Shown here in pieces: positions 25,044-35,232 of a stretch of 52,047 bases of DNA. The DNA lies in assembly GCA_018883725.1 (NCBI GenBank), contig JAHLFN010000013.1, positions 1 through 52,047 on the forward strand, read 5' to 3'. Made by a program: the position numbers and the translations under genes. Every line of letters begins with the position of its first letter. The stretch's first letter is position 1. This stretch comes from Candidatus Fusobacterium pullicola (GTDB lineage Bacteria > Fusobacteriota > Fusobacteriia > Fusobacteriales > Fusobacteriaceae). The notes under the pieces were generated by a model that made no database searches, was not told where the DNA came from, and was given only the letters and a program-made list of their open reading frames with translations.

Positions 25044-25148
25044 AAAAGTAAAGTAAAACAACTAATTAAGTGAAACTAGAACAGTATGAAAAAATACTTT
25101 CATTTTAAGAACACAAAAATGTTAGCAATTTAAAAATAAAATATATAT

Positions 25149-25213
25149 CTCATATATCCCTGTAATATGGTCAGGAGTTTCTACGGGTTGCCAATATAAC
25201 AATCCTCTATGAG
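25149..25213 (+). ncRNA. Purine riboswitch aptamer, guanine-type
   Basis: P1 is CTCATA (25149-25154) with TATGAG (25208-25213). P2 is CCTG with CAGG (25159-25162, 25172-25175) around the conserved L2 AATATGG. The J2/3 hallmark GTTTCTAC (25177-25184) follows. P3 is GGGTTG with CAATCC, one G-U pair, around a 9-base loop starting CC. The base just before the 3' arm of P1 is C207, the position that selects guanine-type rather than adenine-type ligands. It lies upstream of a purine permease gene. P2 is only 4 bp and J3/1 is two bases, both unusual. The likely expression platform includes 25271-25276 (TCCTAA), which can pair with TTAGGA in the ribosome binding site at 25305-25310. Confidence 0.85.
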
Positions 25214-25317
25214 TTGAAATAAAAAATTTGAGCTTTTATATAATTTAAAAAAGTTTTCTTATTTTTTGATTCCTAACTGAAATTAGAAGGATATAAGAGA
25301 GTAATTAGGAGGAAAAA

Positions 25318-26681: not shown

Positions 26682-27470
26682 TTGTTTAGTTTTAAAAATT
26701 ATTTAGCTGTGACAACATTAGAGGAAGCTTATAATGAGTTGTTAAAAAACAAAAAAAATATTGTATTAGGAGGAACTTCTTACCTTAGAATGGGAAACGT
26801 TTCTTATAATACAGCTATAGATTTATCAAACCTTACTCTTAACTATATAAGAGAAGAGGGGGAGTACATTCATATAGGAGCGATGACAAGCTTTAGAGAT
26901 CTAGAAACAAATGAAATTACTCAAAAAATATTTGACGGAATTTTAGATAAATGTGTAAGAGGGATAATAGGAGTACAGTTTAGAACAAATGTGACTGTAG
27001 GAGCTACAGTTTTTTCTAAGTATGGATTTTCAGATCTAATTCCCACTTTATTAGCTATGGGAGCTACTGTTGTACTTTATAACGATGGAGAGATATCTTT
27101 AGAAGATTACCTAAAAGAAGAGGGACTAAGAAGAGATATTCTAGTAGAAGTAAAAATAAGAAAAGATGGAAGAGGATCATTCCAAAGTATAAGAAAAAGT
27201 AAAACTGATTATGCAATAACAAATGTTTGTGTAACTAAGACAGAAGCTGGAATAAGAGCTGCTATTGGAGTAAGACCAGGTAAGGCGGTTTTATCATATA
27301 GAGCTATGGATATTTTGAATAGTAATGAAATAACAGATGAAATTATTGATAAAGCGTGTGAAGCTATGGGTGAAGAGGTTACTTTTGGAAGTAACATGAG
27401 AGGGACAGGAGAGTACAGAAGAGCTGTTTCTAAAAACTTATTAAAGAGAGCAATTAAGGAGGTATTATAG
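26682..27470 (+). CDS. Xanthine dehydrogenase-type molybdenum hydroxylase, FAD subunit
   Basis: A 262-residue FAD-binding subunit (CO-dehydrogenase medium-chain/XdhB-like). The FAD motif reads VLGGTSYLRMG near residues 28-38, and a second G-V-Q-F-R-T-N-V-T-V-G segment follows near 107. The start codon is TTG, nine bases after GGAGG, and its stop overlaps the GTG start of the next gene by one base. It takes electrons from the 2Fe-2S subunit to FAD and on to NAD or another acceptor. Second gene of the purine operon. Confidence 0.87.
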   Translation: MFSFKNYLAVTTLEEAYNELLKNKKNIVLGGTSYLRMGNVSYNTAIDLSNLTLNYIREEGEYIHIGAMTSFRDLETNEITQKIFDGILDKCVRGIIGVQFRTNVTVGATVFSKYGFSDLIPTLLAMGATVVLYNDGEISLEDYLKEEGLRRDILVEVKIRKDGRGSFQSIRKSKTDYAITNVCVTKTEAGIRAAIGVRPGKAVLSYRAMDILNSNEITDEIIDKACEAMGEEVTFGSNMRGTGEYRRAVSKNLLKRAIKEVL

Positions 27471-27925
27471 TGCTTTTAACTCTTAATGTGAATGGAAGAA
27501 AAAGAGAGATTTCAATCTCAGCTGATGAATATTTATTAGATGTATTGAGAAAATTAGGGTATTTAAGTGTAAAAAGAGGGTGTGATACTGGTTCTTGTGG
27601 TCTTTGTACAGTTCTTGTAGATGATAAACCAGTATTATCTTGTAGTACTTTAGCTATAAGAGCTCAAGGGAAGAGAGTAACAACTATAGAAGGATGTCAA
27701 AGAGAAGCTGAAAAATTTGCTGAGTTTATGGCAGCAGAGGGAGCTGAACAATGTGGTTTTTGTGCACCTGGGTTTACTTTAACAGTTCTTGCACTAATGA
27801 AAGAGTTTGAAAATCCAACTGATGAAGAGATATTACACTACTTAAATGGAAATCTATGTAGATGTAGTGGATATATTTCACAACTTAGAGCTATAAAAAA
27901 CTTTATGGAGGCTGAGAAAAAATAA
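27470..27925 (+). CDS. Xanthine dehydrogenase-type molybdenum hydroxylase, 2Fe-2S subunit
   Basis: A 151-residue two-cluster subunit. The plant-type 2Fe-2S ligands are C38, C43, C46 and C58; the second cluster uses C95, C98, C130 and C132 (QCGFC and CRCSGY). It relays electrons from the molybdenum site to FAD. The GTG start overlaps the stop of the FAD subunit gene by one base and its own stop overlaps the ATG of the next gene by one base, so all three subunits are translationally coupled. Confidence 0.92.
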   Translation: MLLTLNVNGRKREISISADEYLLDVLRKLGYLSVKRGCDTGSCGLCTVLVDDKPVLSCSTLAIRAQGKRVTTIEGCQREAEKFAEFMAAEGAEQCGFCAPGFTLTVLALMKEFENPTDEEILHYLNGNLCRCSGYISQLRAIKNFMEAEKK

Positions 27926-30174
27926 TGAAATTTGTAAATAAAGAGATGAAAAAAGTAGATGGAATTGGATTAATTACAGGAAAACCATTCTATACTGATG
28001 ATTTAGTTGCAAATCAAGAGTACTTAATAATCAAACTTCTAAGATCTCCACATGCTTATGCTAAAATCAAGAGTATTGATACTACAATAGCTGAGAAAGT
28101 ACCAGGAGTAGAGGCTATATACACATATAAAGATGTTCCTCAAACTATGTTTACATTAGCAGGGCAATCTTATCCAGAGCCATCTCCTTATGATAGAAAA
28201 ATTTTAGATGAATATGTAAGATATGTAGGAGATCCTGTAGCTATAGTTGCTGGAGTAGATGAGCAAACAGTTGAGAAAGCTATGAAATTAATAAAAGTGG
28301 AATATGAAGTTTTAGAAGCTGTAGTAGATTATGAAAAGGCTTTAGACTCTCATGTATTAGTACATAAAGATAAAGCTCATACAAATTATGATAATATAGG
28401 ATATGATCACAAAAGAAACTTAGCGTCTTCATATTTACAAGTAAAGGGAGATGTAGATAAAGGGTTTGAAGAAAGTGAAGTAATAATAGAAAATACATAT
28501 TATACACAACCACAAATTCATGCTATGATGGAAACTTATAGATCAGCGGCATATTTTGATGTTTATGGAAGACTTACAGTAATTTCATCTACTCAAATAC
28601 CATTTCATGTAAGAAGACACTTAGCTAGAGCTTTAGAGTATCCTAGTAGTAAGATAAGAGTTATAAAACCAAAACTTGGTGGTGGATTTGGAGGAAAACA
28701 AACTTCTGTTTGTGAGATTTATGCAGCTTTTGTAACATTAAAAACTGGTAAACCTTCAAAAATTATCTATACAAGAAAAGAGAGCCAAGCTTATTCAAAT
28801 ACAAGACATGGAATGAGACTTACGGTAAAAGTAGGATCGGATAGAGAAGGAAATATAAAAGCTATAGACATAAATGTATTATCAAATACAGGAGCTTATG
28901 GTGAACATGCTCCAACTGTTACATCACTTGTTGTATATAAGACCTTCCCTCTATATGCTAAAGTACCAATGAGATGTAAAGCTGATATAGTTTATTCAAA
29001 TACTATGGTTGGAGGAGCATTCAGAGGATATGGAGCTACTCAAGGAACATTTGCTGTCGAGTCAGCAGTAAATGAGTTAGCTCATAAATTAGGATTAGAT
29101 CCTACAGAAGTAAGAATGAAGAACTTAGTAGATCAATCAGAAACTGTAAGTGGAGATATCAAAAAATGTATTGAGATTGGTAAGGAAGCTTTCAACTGGA
29201 AAAATAGAGAAGTAATTGACATGGGAGATGGAAAAGTAAGAGCATCTGGAATGGCAGTAACTATGCAAGGTTCTGGAATAGCTGGAGTAGATACAGGTTC
29301 TGCTACAGTAAAATTCCATGATAGTGGAGATTTTACTTTAATGTTAGGTGTTACTGATATGGGACAAGGATGTGATACTGTTCTTACTCAAATGGCTGCT
29401 GAAATATTAGATGTACCTATGGATAAGATAATAGTTAATACAGCAGATACAGATACATCACCATATGATCCGGGAGCATATGCATCAAGTGGAACTTATG
29501 TTACTGGAAACGCTGTAATTATAGCATGTGAAAAAATGAAGAAAGAGATTGTTAAAGCTGCGGCTCAACTGATGAATAAAACTGAAGAAGAGTTAGAATA
29601 TAAGGGAGAATATGTAGAAGCAAAAGATGGATCAACTCTTACCTTAAAAGAGATAGGAGTAAGAAGTATCTCTTTTGAAGGACAAAATCAAATTACAACT
29701 ACAGGAACTTGGGGAGGAGAAACTTCACCACCACCATTTATAGCAAGTTTTGTTGAAGTAGAAGTAGATACCTTTACTGGAGGAGTCGAAGTATTAGATT
29801 TCTTATCAGTAGCTGATTGTGGAACACCAATTAACCCAGCTTTAGCAAAGGTACAAGTAGAGGGAGGAATAGCTCAAGGAATAGGGCTTGCACTTACAGA
29901 AGAGATCACTATAGATAAGAATGGAAAACTTTTACAAGATACTTTAATGCAATATAAGATACCTTCAAGAAAAGATGTTGGACCAAAGGTTAATGTTTTA
30001 TTTAGTCATTCTAATGAGCCAACAGGACCGTTTGGAGCAAAATCTATAGGAGAGGTAGTTATTAACACAGCAGCTCCAGCAATAGCAGATGCTGTTTACA
30101 AAGCAACAAAAGCAAGAGTTAGAAGTCTACCTATAACAAGTGAAAAATTATTCTGGGAAATCTCTTCAAAATAA
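27925..30174 (+). CDS. Xanthine dehydrogenase-type molybdenum hydroxylase, molybdopterin subunit
   Basis: A 749-residue catalytic subunit. Family motifs are visible: GGGFGGKQ near 252, a GAFRGYGATQ segment near 363, and GPFGAKSIGE near 710 with the catalytic glutamate. It binds the molybdenum pyranopterin cofactor and hydroxylates a purine such as xanthine or hypoxanthine. The presence of yqeB and xdhC elsewhere in the window suggests that the cofactor may carry labile selenium. No in-frame UGA is needed for this. The subunit is full length. Confidence 0.9.
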   Translation: MKFVNKEMKKVDGIGLITGKPFYTDDLVANQEYLIIKLLRSPHAYAKIKSIDTTIAEKVPGVEAIYTYKDVPQTMFTLAGQSYPEPSPYDRKILDEYVRYVGDPVAIVAGVDEQTVEKAMKLIKVEYEVLEAVVDYEKALDSHVLVHKDKAHTNYDNIGYDHKRNLASSYLQVKGDVDKGFEESEVIIENTYYTQPQIHAMMETYRSAAYFDVYGRLTVISSTQIPFHVRRHLARALEYPSSKIRVIKPKLGGGFGGKQTSVCEIYAAFVTLKTGKPSKIIYTRKESQAYSNTRHGMRLTVKVGSDREGNIKAIDINVLSNTGAYGEHAPTVTSLVVYKTFPLYAKVPMRCKADIVYSNTMVGGAFRGYGATQGTFAVESAVNELAHKLGLDPTEVRMKNLVDQSETVSGDIKKCIEIGKEAFNWKNREVIDMGDGKVRASGMAVTMQGSGIAGVDTGSATVKFHDSGDFTLMLGVTDMGQGCDTVLTQMAAEILDVPMDKIIVNTADTDTSPYDPGAYASSGTYVTGNAVIIACEKMKKEIVKAAAQLMNKTEEELEYKGEYVEAKDGSTLTLKEIGVRSISFEGQNQITTTGTWGGETSPPPFIASFVEVEVDTFTGGVEVLDFLSVADCGTPINPALAKVQVEGGIAQGIGLALTEEITIDKNGKLLQDTLMQYKIPSRKDVGPKVNVLFSHSNEPTGPFGAKSIGEVVINTAAPAIADAVYKATKARVRSLPITSEKLFWEISSK

Positions 30175-30193: not shown

Positions 30194-30242
30194 ATAAAAA
30201 TATCATTAAATTTATGAGTTAAATATGGAGGCTTATTTTAAA

Positions 30243-30809
30243 ATGGAATTACTAAAGGATTATATCTTAAACAATGGTAAAACTATTGGTTCAAAGATAT
30301 TAAAAGTGGACAGTTTTTTGAATCATCAAATTGACCCTGTTCTTATGATGAAAATGGGAGAAGAATTTAAAAAGAGATTTGAAGGAGTAGAAATCAATAA
30401 AATACTAACGATTGAAGCATCTGGAATAGCTATTGGACTTGCTGCTGCATATGCTCTTAATGTACCATTAGTATTTGCTAAGAAAAAAGTACCTTCTACA
30501 ATGTCAGATTTTTATACAACTAAAGTGTTTTCTTTCACAAAAAATCAAGAATATACAATCTGTGTAGGAAAAGATTTCTTACAGCCAGAGGATAAAGTAT
30601 TAATAATAGATGACTTTTTAGCAATGGGAAATGCAGTTCTTGGGCTTAAAGAGTTAGTGGAGATGGCTGGAGCTAAGGTAATGGGAGCTGGAATAGCTGT
30701 TACAAAAGGTTTCCAAGGTGGAGAAAAACTACTTCAAGATAACGGAATTAGAGTTGAATCTTTAGCTGTTGTAGACTCTTTAGAAAATGGAGAAATCAAT
30801 TTTAGATAA
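30243..30809 (+). CDS. xpt: Xanthine phosphoribosyltransferase
   Basis: A 188-residue purine salvage enzyme converting xanthine and PRPP to XMP. It aligns with Bacillus Xpt from MELLKDYILNNG and keeps the VDSFLNHQIDP segment, the PRPP motif VLIIDDFLAMGNA (about 122-134), and the E-A-S-G-I-A loop. The ATG at 30243 is chosen because it matches the family N-terminus; an ATG six codons upstream overlaps GGAGG. It lies 68 bases after the dehydrogenase genes and may share their transcript or use its own -10. Confidence 0.93.
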   Translation: MELLKDYILNNGKTIGSKILKVDSFLNHQIDPVLMMKMGEEFKKRFEGVEINKILTIEASGIAIGLAAAYALNVPLVFAKKKVPSTMSDFYTTKVFSFTKNQEYTICVGKDFLQPEDKVLIIDDFLAMGNAVLGLKELVEMAGAKVMGAGIAVTKGFQGGEKLLQDNGIRVESLAVVDSLENGEINFR

Positions 30810-30814
30810 AAAGC

Positions 30815-30843
30815 TTGACAAGTTTTTAATATAGGTGTATTAT
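30815..30843 (+). promoter_or_regulatory. Promoter of the histidine leader and transporter
   Basis: TTGACA (30815-30820) and TATTAT (30838-30843) with a 17-base spacer. Transcription should start near 30850, about 26 bases before the leader peptide ATG. Confidence 0.75.
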
Positions 30844-30876
30844 AACATCATACAAAAAATTTAAAAGGAGATTATT

Positions 30877-30936
30877 ATGAAGAGAGAATTTATTTTACTA
30901 AACTTAGCAACAATTCATCATCACCATCATGGGTAG
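30877..30936 (+). CDS. Histidine leader peptide
   Basis: A 19-codon open frame, MKREFILLNLATIHHHHHG, ended by TAG. Five consecutive His codons occupy 30916-30930. AAAAGGAG stands six bases before the ATG and a near-consensus promoter stands before that. Leader peptides of this type make ribosomes stall when charged tRNA-His is scarce; the peptide itself probably has no function. It is followed by mutually exclusive RNA helices and a terminator, and then the amino acid ABC transporter. Confidence 0.85.
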   Translation: MKREFILLNLATIHHHHHG

Positions 30937-31072
30937 AGAGTTTGTTTTGTGAAAGTTATTTCATAGATACAGACTCTGATTAGCATGCAAATTAAGAGTG
31001 TATCTATGATGGTAAAATAAGAGCTTCATAATTTTTAGTAAGACCATCTAGATGAATAGATGGTCTTTTTTA
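30923..31072 (+). promoter_or_regulatory. His-type transcription attenuator
   Basis: Complementary segments: A 30923-30935 (last His codons), B 30937-30945, C 30961-30977, D 30995-31013, E 31040-31053, F 31057-31067. Seen pairings: B with 30969-30977 (9 bp), C with 30995-31009 (10+5 bp around a two-base bulge), D 31002-31012 with E 31044-31053 (10 bp around one bulged T), E with F (11 bp, terminator), and A with D 31001-31013 (13 bp including two G-U pairs). Starved ribosomes would stall before B, giving B:C and D:E and readthrough; ribosomes at the stop codon would mask B, giving C:D and the E:F terminator. Confidence 0.75.
31040..31072 (+). terminator. Attenuator terminator before the histidine transporter
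   Basis: A perfect 11-bp stem (31040-31050 with 31057-31067), six-base loop GATGAA, and a T run up to 31072. It stands only 23 bases before the transporter start codon, so it can only serve regulation. Confidence 0.88.
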
Positions 31073-31095
31073 TTTAATTAAAAGGGGGAATCAAA

Positions 31096-31857
31096 ATGAA
31101 AAAAATAATAATATGTTTAATGTTAATGGTGAGTCTATTTGTAAGTTCTTCTGGAGCAGATAAGTCATTAGAAAATGTAAAAAAGAAAGGATATTTTATA
31201 GTTGGATTAGATGCAACTTTTGCTCCAATGGGATATAGAGATGAAAATGGAGAGATAGTTGGATTTGACATAGATTTAGCTAAAGAGGTTGCAAAGAGAA
31301 TGGGAGTGGAAGCAAGATTTAAACCTTGTGAGTGGGATGCAATAATATTTGATCTAAGAAGCAAGAATATTGATATGGTTTGGAATGGAATGACAATAAC
31401 TCCAGCTAGAGAGAAACAAGTAGCTTTCACAAAACCTTATCTTTCTGATAATCAAATAATATTTACAAAAAAAGGAACAGCTCCTGCAAAGGTTCAAGAT
31501 TTAGCTGGCAAAGTAGTTGGAGTTCAATTGGGAAGCTCTGGAGCTCAAGCTGTAGAAGATAATCCGATTAGTAAGCAGATTAAAGAGGTAAAAAAATATG
31601 CTACTAACGTAGAAGCACTTATGGATCTAGAAGCAGGAAGATTAGATGCTGTAGTAATGGATGAGATATCAGGAAAGTATTACAATCAAAAAAAATCAAC
31701 TTTAACTTATTCAGTTGAAACATTGGCAGATGAAAATTTTGGAGTAGCTCTTAGAAAACAAGATAAGGCTTTAGTAGATGAGATAAATAGATTATTAGAT
31801 GAGATAAAGGCTGATGGAACTTTCGATCAAATAAAAAGTAAATGGATGGCTAATTAA
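31096..31857 (+). CDS. Polar amino acid ABC transporter binding protein, probably histidine
   Basis: A 253-residue family 3 solute-binding protein. A signal peptide (about 1-21) precedes the opening V-K-K-K-G-Y-F-I-V-G-L-D-A-T-F-A-P-M-G. The ligand-binding signature G-F-D-I-D-L-A and the W-N-G-M-T-I-T-P-A-R loop, with the Arg that grips the amino acid carboxylate, are present. There is no lipobox. Family 3 proteins bind His, Arg, Lys, Gln or Cys; the His-rich leader ahead of the operon points to histidine. First of three genes. Confidence 0.85.
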   Translation: MKKIIICLMLMVSLFVSSSGADKSLENVKKKGYFIVGLDATFAPMGYRDENGEIVGFDIDLAKEVAKRMGVEARFKPCEWDAIIFDLRSKNIDMVWNGMTITPAREKQVAFTKPYLSDNQIIFTKKGTAPAKVQDLAGKVVGVQLGSSGAQAVEDNPISKQIKEVKKYATNVEALMDLEAGRLDAVVMDEISGKYYNQKKSTLTYSVETLADENFGVALRKQDKALVDEINRLLDEIKADGTFDQIKSKWMAN

Positions 31858-31878: not shown

Positions 31879-32505
31879 ATGGAAAATAATATTTTATTTA
31901 TATTGCATGGACTTGGATTAACAGTTAAGTTATATATAGTTACGATGATATTCTCTTTACCATTAGGAGTTATATTATCACTAGGAAGAATATCAAAAAA
32001 TTCAATTTTAAATAATGGAATACAAGTTTATACATGGGTATTTAGAGGAACACCTCTACTATTACAGTTATTCTTTGTATATTATGGACTACCTGTAATA
32101 GGAATAACTTTATCTCCTTTTACAGCTGCAGCTCTTACTTTTATAATTAATTATACAGCTTATTTTTGTGAGATCTTTAGAGGAAGTATATTAGGTATAG
32201 ATAAGGGACAATATGAAGCAGCTAAGGTACTAGGGATGAGTTACTGGCAAACTATGGTAAGAATAATTATTCCTCAAGCCTTAATTACAGCTTTACCTCC
32301 TCTTGGAAACGAAGCAATAGCATTGATAAAAGATACATCTTTAATCTCAGCAATAGGAATGGCTGAAATCTTAAGAAACTCAAGAGAGATTGTAACGAGA
32401 GATTTTTCAATAACACCATTTATAATATGTGCTGGAATATATTTAATACTTTCAACAGTAGTTGTAATATTCTTTAAGAGAATGGAGAAAAAGGTGGTAA
32501 TATAA
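31879..32505 (+). CDS. Polar amino acid ABC transporter permease
   Basis: A 208-residue HisM/HisQ/GlnP-type permease with about five membrane helices. The family motif F-R-G-T-P-L-L-L-Q-L is near residue 55, and the EAA loop that contacts the ATPase reads G-Q-Y-E-A-A-K-V-L-G-M. Only one permease gene is present, so it presumably forms a homodimer. It ends one base into the ATPase gene start (overlap TAATG), indicating translational coupling. Confidence 0.9.
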   Translation: MENNILFILHGLGLTVKLYIVTMIFSLPLGVILSLGRISKNSILNNGIQVYTWVFRGTPLLLQLFFVYYGLPVIGITLSPFTAAALTFIINYTAYFCEIFRGSILGIDKGQYEAAKVLGMSYWQTMVRIIIPQALITALPPLGNEAIALIKDTSLISAIGMAEILRNSREIVTRDFSITPFIICAGIYLILSTVVVIFFKRMEKKVVI

Positions 32506-33152
32506 TGATTATAAAGATAAGAGATTTACATAAGAATTATGAAGGAAATATAGAGATTTTAAAAGGCGTAAACTTAGATATAAAAAAAGGTGAGGTAATA
32601 TCTATAATAGGTGCTTCAGGAGGTGGAAAATCAACACTTCTAAGATGTATGATAGGTTTAGAAGAGATTGATAAAGGGAGTATAGAGACACCAGATAGAC
32701 AAAAAATGGGAATGGTATTTCAATCGTTTAACCTATTTCCACATATGACAGCCCTTCAAAATATAATGGAATCATTAGTTGTAGTTGATAAGATGCCAAA
32801 GGAAGAGGCTAAGAAGATAGGACTGGAACTTTTAGAAAGAGTAGGGTTAAAGGAGAGAGCTAACTTTTATCCTAAAGCACTTTCAGGTGGACAAAAACAA
32901 AGAGTTGCAATAGCGAGAGCTATGGCTAAAAATCCAGAGGTTCTTTTATTTGATGAACCAACCTCTGCTTTAGATCCAGAGATGGTAAATGAAGTATTAA
33001 ATGTAATTCAAAATTTGAAAGATACTACAAAGATGACGATGGTTATAGTTAGCCATGAGATAGACTTTGTAAATAAAATATCTGATAGAATAGTAGTTAT
33101 GGAAAATGGAAATATTAAGGAGATAAGAGAGGTTTCAAAAAATAATAAATAA
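32505..33152 (+). CDS. Polar amino acid ABC transporter ATPase
   Basis: A 215-residue ABC ATPase of the HisP/GlnQ family. Walker A is GASGGGKST, the Q-loop reads GMVFQSFNLFPHM, the signature is LSGGQ, Walker B is VLLFDEPTSALD, and the switch His is in VSHE. All motifs are canonical. It drives uptake of the amino acid bound by the upstream binding protein. It is the last gene of the attenuator-controlled operon and is followed by a strong terminator. Confidence 0.93.
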   Translation: MIIKIRDLHKNYEGNIEILKGVNLDIKKGEVISIIGASGGGKSTLLRCMIGLEEIDKGSIETPDRQKMGMVFQSFNLFPHMTALQNIMESLVVVDKMPKEEAKKIGLELLERVGLKERANFYPKALSGGQKQRVAIARAMAKNPEVLLFDEPTSALDPEMVNEVLNVIQNLKDTTKMTMVIVSHEIDFVNKISDRIVVMENGNIKEIREVSKNNK

Positions 33153-33297: not shown

Positions 33298-34446
33298 TTA
33301 TCCTAATAATTCTAAAAAAGCTTCCATTCTTATTTTGATTTGTCCAAAATCAGCTTGAGAGTAATCTGTTTCTAAAGCTATATAAGGTATTTCTTTATCT
33401 TTAGTAACAATTTTTCTTATATTATAACTTTCCACAGCATAGGTATGACAAGCTTGTAATACTACCTCAACTACTCCATCTATTTTATACTCTTCAATTA
33501 GATTTTTTATGATATCTTCTCTACCCTTATTTGGACTCATAACTGAACAAGGAATATTTAAATATTTTTTAGCTAAAGCATCAATGGGATTTTCCTTTTC
33601 ATCTACTAACTCTTCTAAATTTTTTATTCCACTACAGCTTTCAAAAGCTACAACTACTCCTCCTAACTCTTCTAAAGGTTTAACAACTTTTTCATAAACT
33701 CCACCTATTGGACAACCAGTTATAAGTATTCTAGGAGCAGATTTAGATATAGGTCCTTCATTATTTTTATGAACCTCTTTTAGATGTTCGATCATTTTAA
33801 TTAATCTGTTATTTTGTTCCTCTTTGTTAAAAGTAAAATTAGCTCCTTCTAAAACTTTATAGATCTCATATCCCGATATTGGAGGAGGAACTAGTTTTCC
33901 AAGAGAATAGAACTCTTTTAAGATTTTTCTTTCTTCGTTACAAGATAATATACTATCTCTTAATTTTTCTTCAGTAATTTTAACATTAAATTTTTCTTCT
34001 AATCTACTTATTAATTTTTCAATCTCTTTTCTCCAAAGTTTTAGAGAATCTTCATCTTTCATATTAGGAAGATTCATTATATGAGTATCTTTTATCTCAC
34101 CTAAAAGCTCATACATTTTTTTCTTTCCATCACAAGTAGTTTCACCAACAACTAAGTCGGAAAAATACATATATGGACACTTATCAGTTAAAGCAAATCC
34201 ATAGCTTGCTTTAATTAAAGGGCAAAGATTTTTAGGAAGATGTTTTTCAGCTTCTGGAATAGTTTCATCATTTGAAGCACAAAGTGAAACTGGGTGAGCT
34301 CCAGCAGCATAAATTACCTCTTTCGGCGTATAAGTACAGAATACTCCAACTATATTTTCTCCTCTATCTTTCATCTCTTTTGCTTTTAAAAATCCTTGCC
34401 TTCTAGCATCGGAAAAAGCATCAAAATCTTTTGGTAAACTTTTCAT
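33298..34446 (-). CDS. Double-cubane-cluster protein (HgdB/YjiM-like reductase)
   Basis: A 382-residue protein of the 2-hydroxyacyl-CoA dehydratase D-component family, in the single-subunit group now known as double-cubane-cluster proteins (E. coli YjiM type). Conserved cysteines lie in GVFCTYTP, SLCASN, KNLCP, KCPY, ETTCDGKK, TGCPIGG and LQACHTY. A characterised relative holds an 8Fe-9S double cubane and reduces small molecules such as acetylene with ATP-driven electrons. The natural substrate is unknown. It follows its activator gene by 18 bases and is the last gene of an apparent five-gene operon. Confidence 0.82.
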   Translation of the reverse strand: MKSLPKDFDAFSDARRQGFLKAKEMKDRGENIVGVFCTYTPKEVIYAAGAHPVSLCASNDETIPEAEKHLPKNLCPLIKASYGFALTDKCPYMYFSDLVVGETTCDGKKKMYELLGEIKDTHIMNLPNMKDEDSLKLWRKEIEKLISRLEEKFNVKITEEKLRDSILSCNEERKILKEFYSLGKLVPPPISGYEIYKVLEGANFTFNKEEQNNRLIKMIEHLKEVHKNNEGPISKSAPRILITGCPIGGVYEKVVKPLEELGGVVVAFESCSGIKNLEELVDEKENPIDALAKKYLNIPCSVMSPNKGREDIIKNLIEEYKIDGVVEVVLQACHTYAVESYNIRKIVTKDKEIPYIALETDYSQADFGQIKIRMEAFLELLG

Positions 34447-34464
34447 ATATTCTCCTTGTTTAAA

Positions 34465-35232
34465 TTATCTATTTTTTATTTTTTTAGCTGTAAGAGCAGC
34501 TCCAATAGCTCCAGCATATCTAGCTAATTCACTATTTGAATAAACTTCTCCATTTAATGATTTACTCAATAGTTCTAAAATATAATCATTGCCACATAAC
34601 CCACCTGTTAAAAAGAAAACAGAGTTTTTAGTATGTTTTTTACATAGAGAACAAACTCTTTCAATAACAGAGTTAACTACTCCATAAGCTATATTCTCCC
34701 TACTCTCTCCTCTTCCAATTAGACTTATAACTTCAGATTCAGCAAATACTGTACACATAGATGTTATTTTAGTATCCTTTCCTTTTTTAGAAAGTTCTAT
34801 GAGTTCATTTATTTTTACTCCCAATATATTTCCCATAACTTCTAAAAATCTACCAGTTCCAGCAGAACATTTATCGTTCATAATAAAATCTGAAACCATT
34901 CCATCTTGTAGAGTAATTATTTTGGTATCTTGACCACCTATATCAATAACTGTACAATCTTTTTTGAAAAGATAAAAAGCTCCTAATCCGTGACAAGTTA
35001 TCTCAGTAACTGTTTTATTAGCAAAGGGTATAGAAACTCTACCATACCCTGTTCCAACTATTTTGGTATCATCTTTCATATATCCCATTTCTGTTAATTT
35101 CTTTAAAATATTTTCAGAAGTTTCTACACAACTCCAACCAGTTGGCATAGTAAACTTATCTATTATTTTATCGGTATCCATTACAACTACTTTAGCTGCT
35201 GTAGAACCGATATCTATTCCTATAAAATACAA
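34465..35232 (-). CDS. ATP-dependent activator of the double-cubane protein (HgdC/YjiL-like)
   Basis: A 255-residue BadF/BadG/HgdA-family ATPase. The actin-like ATP motif GIDIGSTAAK opens the protein and VIDIGGQDTK follows near 97. The two cysteines that hold the 4Fe-4S cluster between monomers are in NDKCSAGTGR and SMCTVFAESE. It hydrolyses ATP to push one low-potential electron into the downstream double-cubane protein. It is 18 bases behind the MalG-like permease gene, so it appears to share a transcript with the importer. Confidence 0.88.
   Translation of the reverse strand: MYFIGIDIGSTAAKVVVMDTDKIIDKFTMPTGWSCVETSENILKKLTEMGYMKDDTKIVGTGYGRVSIPFANKTVTEITCHGLGAFYLFKKDCTVIDIGGQDTKIITLQDGMVSDFIMNDKCSAGTGRFLEVMGNILGVKINELIELSKKGKDTKITSMCTVFAESEVISLIGRGESRENIAYGVVNSVIERVCSLCKKHTKNSVFFLTGGLCGNDYILELLSKSLNGEVYSNSELARYAGAIGAALTAKKIKNR

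Follow-up and report, generated by a model that had tools for sequence, protein, structure and literature searches.

Why should a short open reading frame that ends in a run of histidine codons stand directly in front of an amino-acid importer operon? The question is raised by a 52,047-nt stretch of DNA from Candidatus Fusobacterium pullicola (contig JAHLFN010000013.1, positions 1 to 52,047; the window, in what follows), in which such a frame is followed by a series of alternative RNA helices, an intrinsic terminator and the genes of an ABC transporter. We hold it to be very probable that this element is a ribosome-mediated transcription attenuator responding to charged histidyl-tRNA, that the operon under its control encodes an ABC importer for an amino acid, probably histidine, and that the element is one of a paralogous family in the Fusobacteriota.

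The importer operon and its leader

The locus comprises the following features.

30815-30843 (+): sigma-70-type promoter TTGACA-17-TATTAT, from sequence (TTGACA 30815-30820, TATTAT 30838-30843)
30865-30870 (+): Shine-Dalgarno site AAGGAG of the leader peptide, from sequence, 6 nt before the ATG at 30877
30877-30936 (+): leader peptide ORF, MKREFILLNLATIHHHHHG and a stop codon, from sequence; counterparts at 37 of the 50 orthologous loci examined
30916-30930 (+): sensor, five consecutive His codons CAT CAT CAC CAT CAT, from sequence
30923-30934 (+): segment A, overlapping the His codons and predicted to pair with D when the ribosome is absent (minimum-energy fold, A:D pairing)
30937-30954 (+): segment B, predicted to pair with C during a His stall or without translation (folding, B:C covariation)
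30959-30981 (+): segment C, pairing with B or D; 5' arm of P1 of RF04312 (B:C and C:D alignments, RF04312 match)
30990-31013 (+): segment D, with a 3' part (31002-31013, ATCTATGATGGT) for which A, C and E are alternative partners
31040-31053 (+): segment E, forming an antiterminator with D or a terminator with F (D:E and E:F pairing)
31057-31071 (+): segment F and U run, 3' arm of the intrinsic terminator (folding, E:F pairing)
31096-31857 (+): regulated gene 1, amino-acid ABC transporter substrate-binding protein (NCBIfam TIGR01096-like, below cut-off)
31879-32505 (+): regulated gene 2, amino-acid ABC permease (TIGR01726, over cut-off)
32505-33152 (+): regulated gene 3, amino-acid ABC ATPase (NCBIfam)

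An earlier sequence-only reading of this DNA had placed a promoter, a ribosome binding site, a frame with a His run and a terminator in front of the importer, and all of these were found where it placed them. The pairings that it claimed can also be seen in the window with small extensions, one of them concerning B:C: this helix is present, but the segment B proposed there (30937-30945) was too short, as 30937-30954 pairs with 30959-30977. C:D carries a 2-nt bulge in this species. The terminator stem is formed by 31040-31050 with 31057-31067, the U run occupies 31066-31071, and about 24 nt separate the end of the terminator from the start codon of the substrate-binding protein (ATG, 31096). 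The leader RNA folds at -58.3 kcal/mol, against -38.4 +/- 3.95 kcal/mol for dinucleotide shuffles (z -5.0, 0 of 200), and its minimum-energy fold combines A:D, B:C and E:F, the very combination that had been assigned to the state without translation. Furthermore, the window contains a single run of five CAY codons, whereas 200 first-order Markov windows contain none, both strands being counted.

Solved homologues of the substrate-binding protein are polar or basic amino-acid binding proteins, and no histidine-specific NCBIfam model was matched above its cut-off by the transporter proteins. We predict that the imported substrate is probably histidine. The transporter gene is identical to its counterpart in Fusobacterium mortiferum An814. 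On its 5' side, the leader directly follows a gene for an Xpt-like phosphoribosyltransferase (30225-30809), which itself lies downstream of a purine riboswitch (RF00167, 59.6 bits, window 25130-25229, plus strand) placed upstream of a xanthine-dehydrogenase-like cluster (26682-30174). Beyond the operon, the minus strand at 33298-35232 carries genes whose products resemble a subunit of 2-hydroxyacyl-CoA dehydratase and the ATP-dependent activator of that enzyme.

Conservation of the His run and of the helices

Among 61 genomes belonging to the GTDB family, 53 have an orthologue of the substrate-binding protein, and the upstream DNA was read at 50 loci, comprising 48 orthologues and two tandem paralogues. 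The 37 loci with a counterpart have a Shine-Dalgarno-led ORF that ends in three to six in-frame His codons; Gln or Tyr breaks the run in a few of them, and Arg plus the stop codon usually come next. A promoter resembling TTGAC...TAT.AT also stands upstream of the leader ORF in orthologous loci, and a Shine-Dalgarno-like site precedes it there as well. The N-terminal parts of the peptides diverge widely (e.g. MFNRSFSIFITVHHHHHR, MSQLFVVLNSLHHHHRY and MKVISVLKNTLHHHHHR). Sensor codons number 169 in all: 139 CAT, 28 CAC, one CAA and one TAT, the last two being the only ones that do not encode His.

These data bear on two alternatives in which the His run would not be read by a regulating ribosome. 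We attach a vanishingly small probability to the idea that the ORF encodes a functional small protein, acting for example by metal binding through its His run, and that the terminator simply ends an upstream transcript. Poly-His can bind metals, and the ORF does have its own promoter and Shine-Dalgarno site, but the N-terminal sequence is unconserved, other homopolymers replace the His run before other genes, and the mutually exclusive helices covary. It is also extremely unlikely that the CAT repeats are kept merely for A:D pairing, acting as RNA under a regulator that is a protein or temperature. Pairing in A:D stands at 94%, and segment A does share bases with the His codons; against this, the His codons 5' of the helix are conserved too, from which it follows that the run is retained for its codons, beyond any role as RNA. 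Third positions moreover vary between CAT and CAC while the encoded residue hardly changes, the start codon and Shine-Dalgarno site are kept, and in paralogues the codons are those of Asn, Thr, Tyr or Met, in agreement with the downstream genes.

The attenuator reading further calls for helices that are conserved as such. The alignment comprised 31 leaders. In it, B:C proved to be 98.2% paired, both sides having changed at 4 of its 7 pairs; for C:D the figures are 89.9% and 4 of 15, and for E:F 97.5% and 6 of 9. D:E is 95.3% paired, with two-sided changes at 2 of 9 pairs and otherwise mostly one-sided or wobble changes. A:D is 94.1% paired and covaries at 1 of 11 pairs, located at a His codon third position (Fisher p 0.07 for the third base versus D), the remaining changes being mostly wobbles. 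When the partner is slid by 1-3 columns, pairing falls to 15-55% in all five helices. The covariation support for D:E and A:D is thus the weaker, which is expected, because the sequence of D is constrained by three partners, A, C and E. Conservation of the His run and compensatory change in the five helices across relatives, the check put forward in the sequence-only reading, turned out as foreseen for the His run and for B:C, C:D and E:F; A:D and D:E are conserved, but mostly by wobble. The lack of conservation that was named there as refuting the reading did not occur.

Fusobacterium-genus g5 genomes (loci L016, L017, L019 and L020) have the transporter gene without a His leader upstream. 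Their loci instead carry a terminator bordered by TTTAGTAGACTAAAGTAA and ACTTTAGTTAAATAAAGTAA-like repeats, and the attenuator seems to have given way there to a different regulator.

Proposed switching mechanism

We infer that ribosome stalling, transcription-translation coupling and a read-through response to histidine work together in the following manner. When histidine is plentiful, the ribosome would reach the stop codon and cover B, allowing C:D and then E:F to form, and transcription would terminate. When histidine is short, it would stall on the His codons, covering A and leaving B free to pair with C; with B:C formed, D would be available for the D:E antiterminator, the terminator would be absent and the importer would be made. 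If translation is absent altogether, A:D and B:C would form, E:F would follow, and transcription would again stop.

A crude simulation, in which the RNA left free downstream of the ribosome was folded as fragments at equilibrium, supports this three-state scheme, already outlined in the sequence-only reading, for the window leader. In the model, E has an upstream partner before the synthesis of F with a probability of 0.32 when no ribosome is present, 0.99 when one has stalled at the first His codon and 0.79 when it has reached the stop codon; for D being occupied before the synthesis of E, the corresponding values are 0.85, 0.30 and 0.76. As E is still left pairing upstream at 0.79 in the stop-codon state, the OFF state would depend on C:D forming before E, and hence on kinetics. 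Across 104 elements the stall value exceeded the stop value in 65 and the reverse held in 11 (Wilcoxon p 3e-10, for elements that are related and not independent). The simulation misses the logic for Met leaders and does not clearly reproduce it for Thr and Tyr leaders.

A family of leaders for different amino acids

A covariance model trained on His-transporter leaders only (R1) was used to search 98 Fusobacteriota genomes, and it returned second and further matches per genome that proved to be leaders for other amino acids. With downstream genes identified from NCBIfam, several of them below the curated cut-off and the transporters least certain, the leaders fall into the following sets:

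Asn-run leaders: before asnA
His leaders: before hisZ
Pro codons, scattered: before putP
Thr-run leaders: before thrS and asd
Tyr-run leaders: before tyrS
Met-run leaders: before metG, metN, homoserine dehydrogenase and O-acetylhomoserine sulfhydrylase
aromatic leader WYFYYY: before DAHP synthase (aroF)
Trp-codon leaders: before TrpX-type and sodium-dependent transporters

One Asn leader, MRFHIFGLTAQFNNNNNNMSRFGL, lies in the same genome as the window (locus L092, G000:C67:46528-48166; element G000:C67:46828-46966), where it shows the same RNA architecture and precedes asnA.

The agreement between codons and genes was assessed with the leader ORF chosen by its Shine-Dalgarno site alone and with homopolymer runs of at least three codons, a rule that misses the scattered codons of Pro and short Trp leaders. 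Of 51 homopolymer leaders, 48 match the downstream gene, compared with a mean of 11.9 and a maximum of 24 over 10,000 shuffles. The Asn, Pro and Met leaders show specificity re-aimed on one RNA scaffold; to our knowledge, leaders of these three kinds have seldom or never been described.

A second model (R2) gave matches at E <= 0.001 in 64 of the 98 genomes, up to seven in each and almost all in families f1 and f4. Antisense matches to the covariance models, which stem from the near-palindromic C:D hairpin, were left out. Among about 290 genomes outside the phylum, R2 matched one, with two weak matches that are leaderless gene-end terminators. R2 matches outside the Fusobacteriales (G184 and G097) were rejected as gene-end terminators with no leader, and a search of viral contigs for the exact leader pattern found none.

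Relation to the RF04312 motif

At gathering score, no Rfam family matches the leader element. Below it, the 'trpB motif' RF04312 matches 30960-31075 over its full length (1-107) with 47.2 bits and E 4.8e-6, the gathering score being 59. The stems align, such that P1 corresponds to C:D and P2 to the E:F terminator, with the antiterminator in the 3' arm of P1. RF04312 matches were found in 38 of the 98 Fusobacteriota genomes, mostly at the leaders described here and in none of the 98 over the gathering score; among control genomes, Lactococcus lactis alone gave a match, which is below cut-off. RF04312 (SRC-39-1), reported from Firmicutes and Fusobacteria, was published in 2024 without a leader peptide and classed as a strong candidate for a riboswitch; most often it precedes an uncharacterised amino-acid-type ABC transporter (PMC11109978).

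The match and that publication are what could be said for a metabolite-binding riboswitch, in which the 3' half corresponding to RF04312 would bind its ligand directly and the short ORF would be incidental. We nevertheless regard this as very unlikely. From one regulated gene to another the codons of the run differ (His, Asn, Pro, Thr, Tyr, Met, Trp) while the hairpin chassis stays constant, no conserved unpaired core exists beyond short motifs, and the His codons outside the helices stay His. Additionally, a BLAST search with the RF04312 consensus led to a Fusobacterium vincentii element that is preceded by the leader MKQILTTTMRYWQNWHR, which has two Trp codons, and the authors of RF04312 themselves left a classic attenuator open (PMC11109978).

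In Fusobacteria, comparison of these elements indicates that RF04312 is probably the 3' half of leader-peptide attenuators, and we predict that it is an attenuator half in Firmicutes as well. With moderate confidence we favour a wider proposal: that one ancestral chassis, its codons swapped among His, Asn, Pro, Thr, Tyr, Met, Trp and mixed aromatic runs, provides general amino-acid control in the Fusobacteriota in the role played in Firmicutes by T-boxes, and that RF04312, in Firmicutes included, is the 3' half of such attenuators and not a riboswitch. The attenuator reading offers a testable answer to an orphan riboswitch candidate and spares a hunt for its ligand.

Several candidates with an RF04312 match alone were set aside. 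Two of them (G009:C1:409409 and G011:C14:30262) look like chance terminators after a rubredoxin-like ORF, and at a third (G035:C7:6408) no leader was found. Nine matches to an RF04312-like hairpin pattern in viral contigs are unrelated palindromes. The Fusobacterium vincentii sequence NZ_CP084075.1 (L222) is filed as plasmid pSB055A, although at 2.1 Mb it is evidently a chromosome.

Comparison with known attenuators and T-boxes

The element in the window resembles the enterobacterial his attenuator (RF00514) in its consecutive-His leader peptide, its exclusive segments A-F and its intrinsic terminator, and derepression on His-tRNA shortage is predicted here as well. Unlike that system, it controls a transporter, and it stands within a paralogous Fusobacteriota family that serves several amino acids. 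The wiring predicted without translation also differs, being A:D, B:C and E:F here and A:B, C:D and E:F in E. coli, and RF00514 gave no match in the element, either at gathering score or at E <= 10. The earlier suggestion that enterobacterial his logic is reproduced was therefore right in that the element appears to work like his, but it is not a his leader.

Also comparable are the His-leader attenuators of three Firmicutes lineages, which control the his operon and/or the hisZ*YX transporter and consist of 3-5 His codons followed by an attenuator and terminator (PMC9413887), and the hisZ and hisS leaders of bacilli (PMC2965389). The Firmicutes leaders were described for His alone and in three lineages, and their likeness to the fusobacterial chassis is drawn from description. 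A His leader on a transporter is thus already known in Firmicutes, and the window element is of a known kind in a new phylum; what is new is the chassis with many specificities, together with the proposed explanation of RF04312. A literature search found no report of leader-peptide attenuators in Fusobacteria, which is weak evidence of absence, as subscription papers lay largely outside its coverage. Taken singly, the element resembles a textbook attenuator, in a phylum where it was unexpected, whereas the family amounts to a predicted amino-acid regulatory network for the Fusobacteriota, a phylum with little known RNA-based regulation.

The family as a whole is reminiscent of T-box leaders, in which one chassis is likewise re-aimed among amino acids and controls aminoacyl-tRNA synthetase, biosynthesis and transport genes. 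Such genes are under T-box control in Firmicutes (PMC2494555, PMC9413887), yet we give almost no credence to a tRNA-sensing T-box at this locus. A T-box binds tRNA directly through a specifier codon, whereas here a ribosome would read the codon run of a peptide. RF00230 is unmatched in the window and in its own genome, and T-boxes exceed the cut-off in 2 of the 98 Fusobacteriota genomes, in line with the zero reported for Fusobacteria and Thermotogae (PMC2494555).

Paralogous leaders and predicted transporter substrates

Within the attenuator family, the f4 paralogues begin alike with MKRFREAM/S but differ in their ends (HHHR, CMS or CSHRC) and in the transporter genes that follow, an apparent case of specificity re-aimed after duplication. 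For the MKRFREAM/S leaders L096, L176 and L220, the downstream genes code for a substrate-binding protein, for a MetN-like ATPase and for a permease. Elsewhere, the Tyr-run leader MNNKNFVTTSYYYYYRNQDLN precedes an AGCS-type symporter (L203), which suggests tyrosine-controlled uptake by a member of this symporter family. Finally, a YYYYYY leader before a TrpX-like substrate-binding protein (L157) hints that this transporter may carry tyrosine rather than tryptophan.
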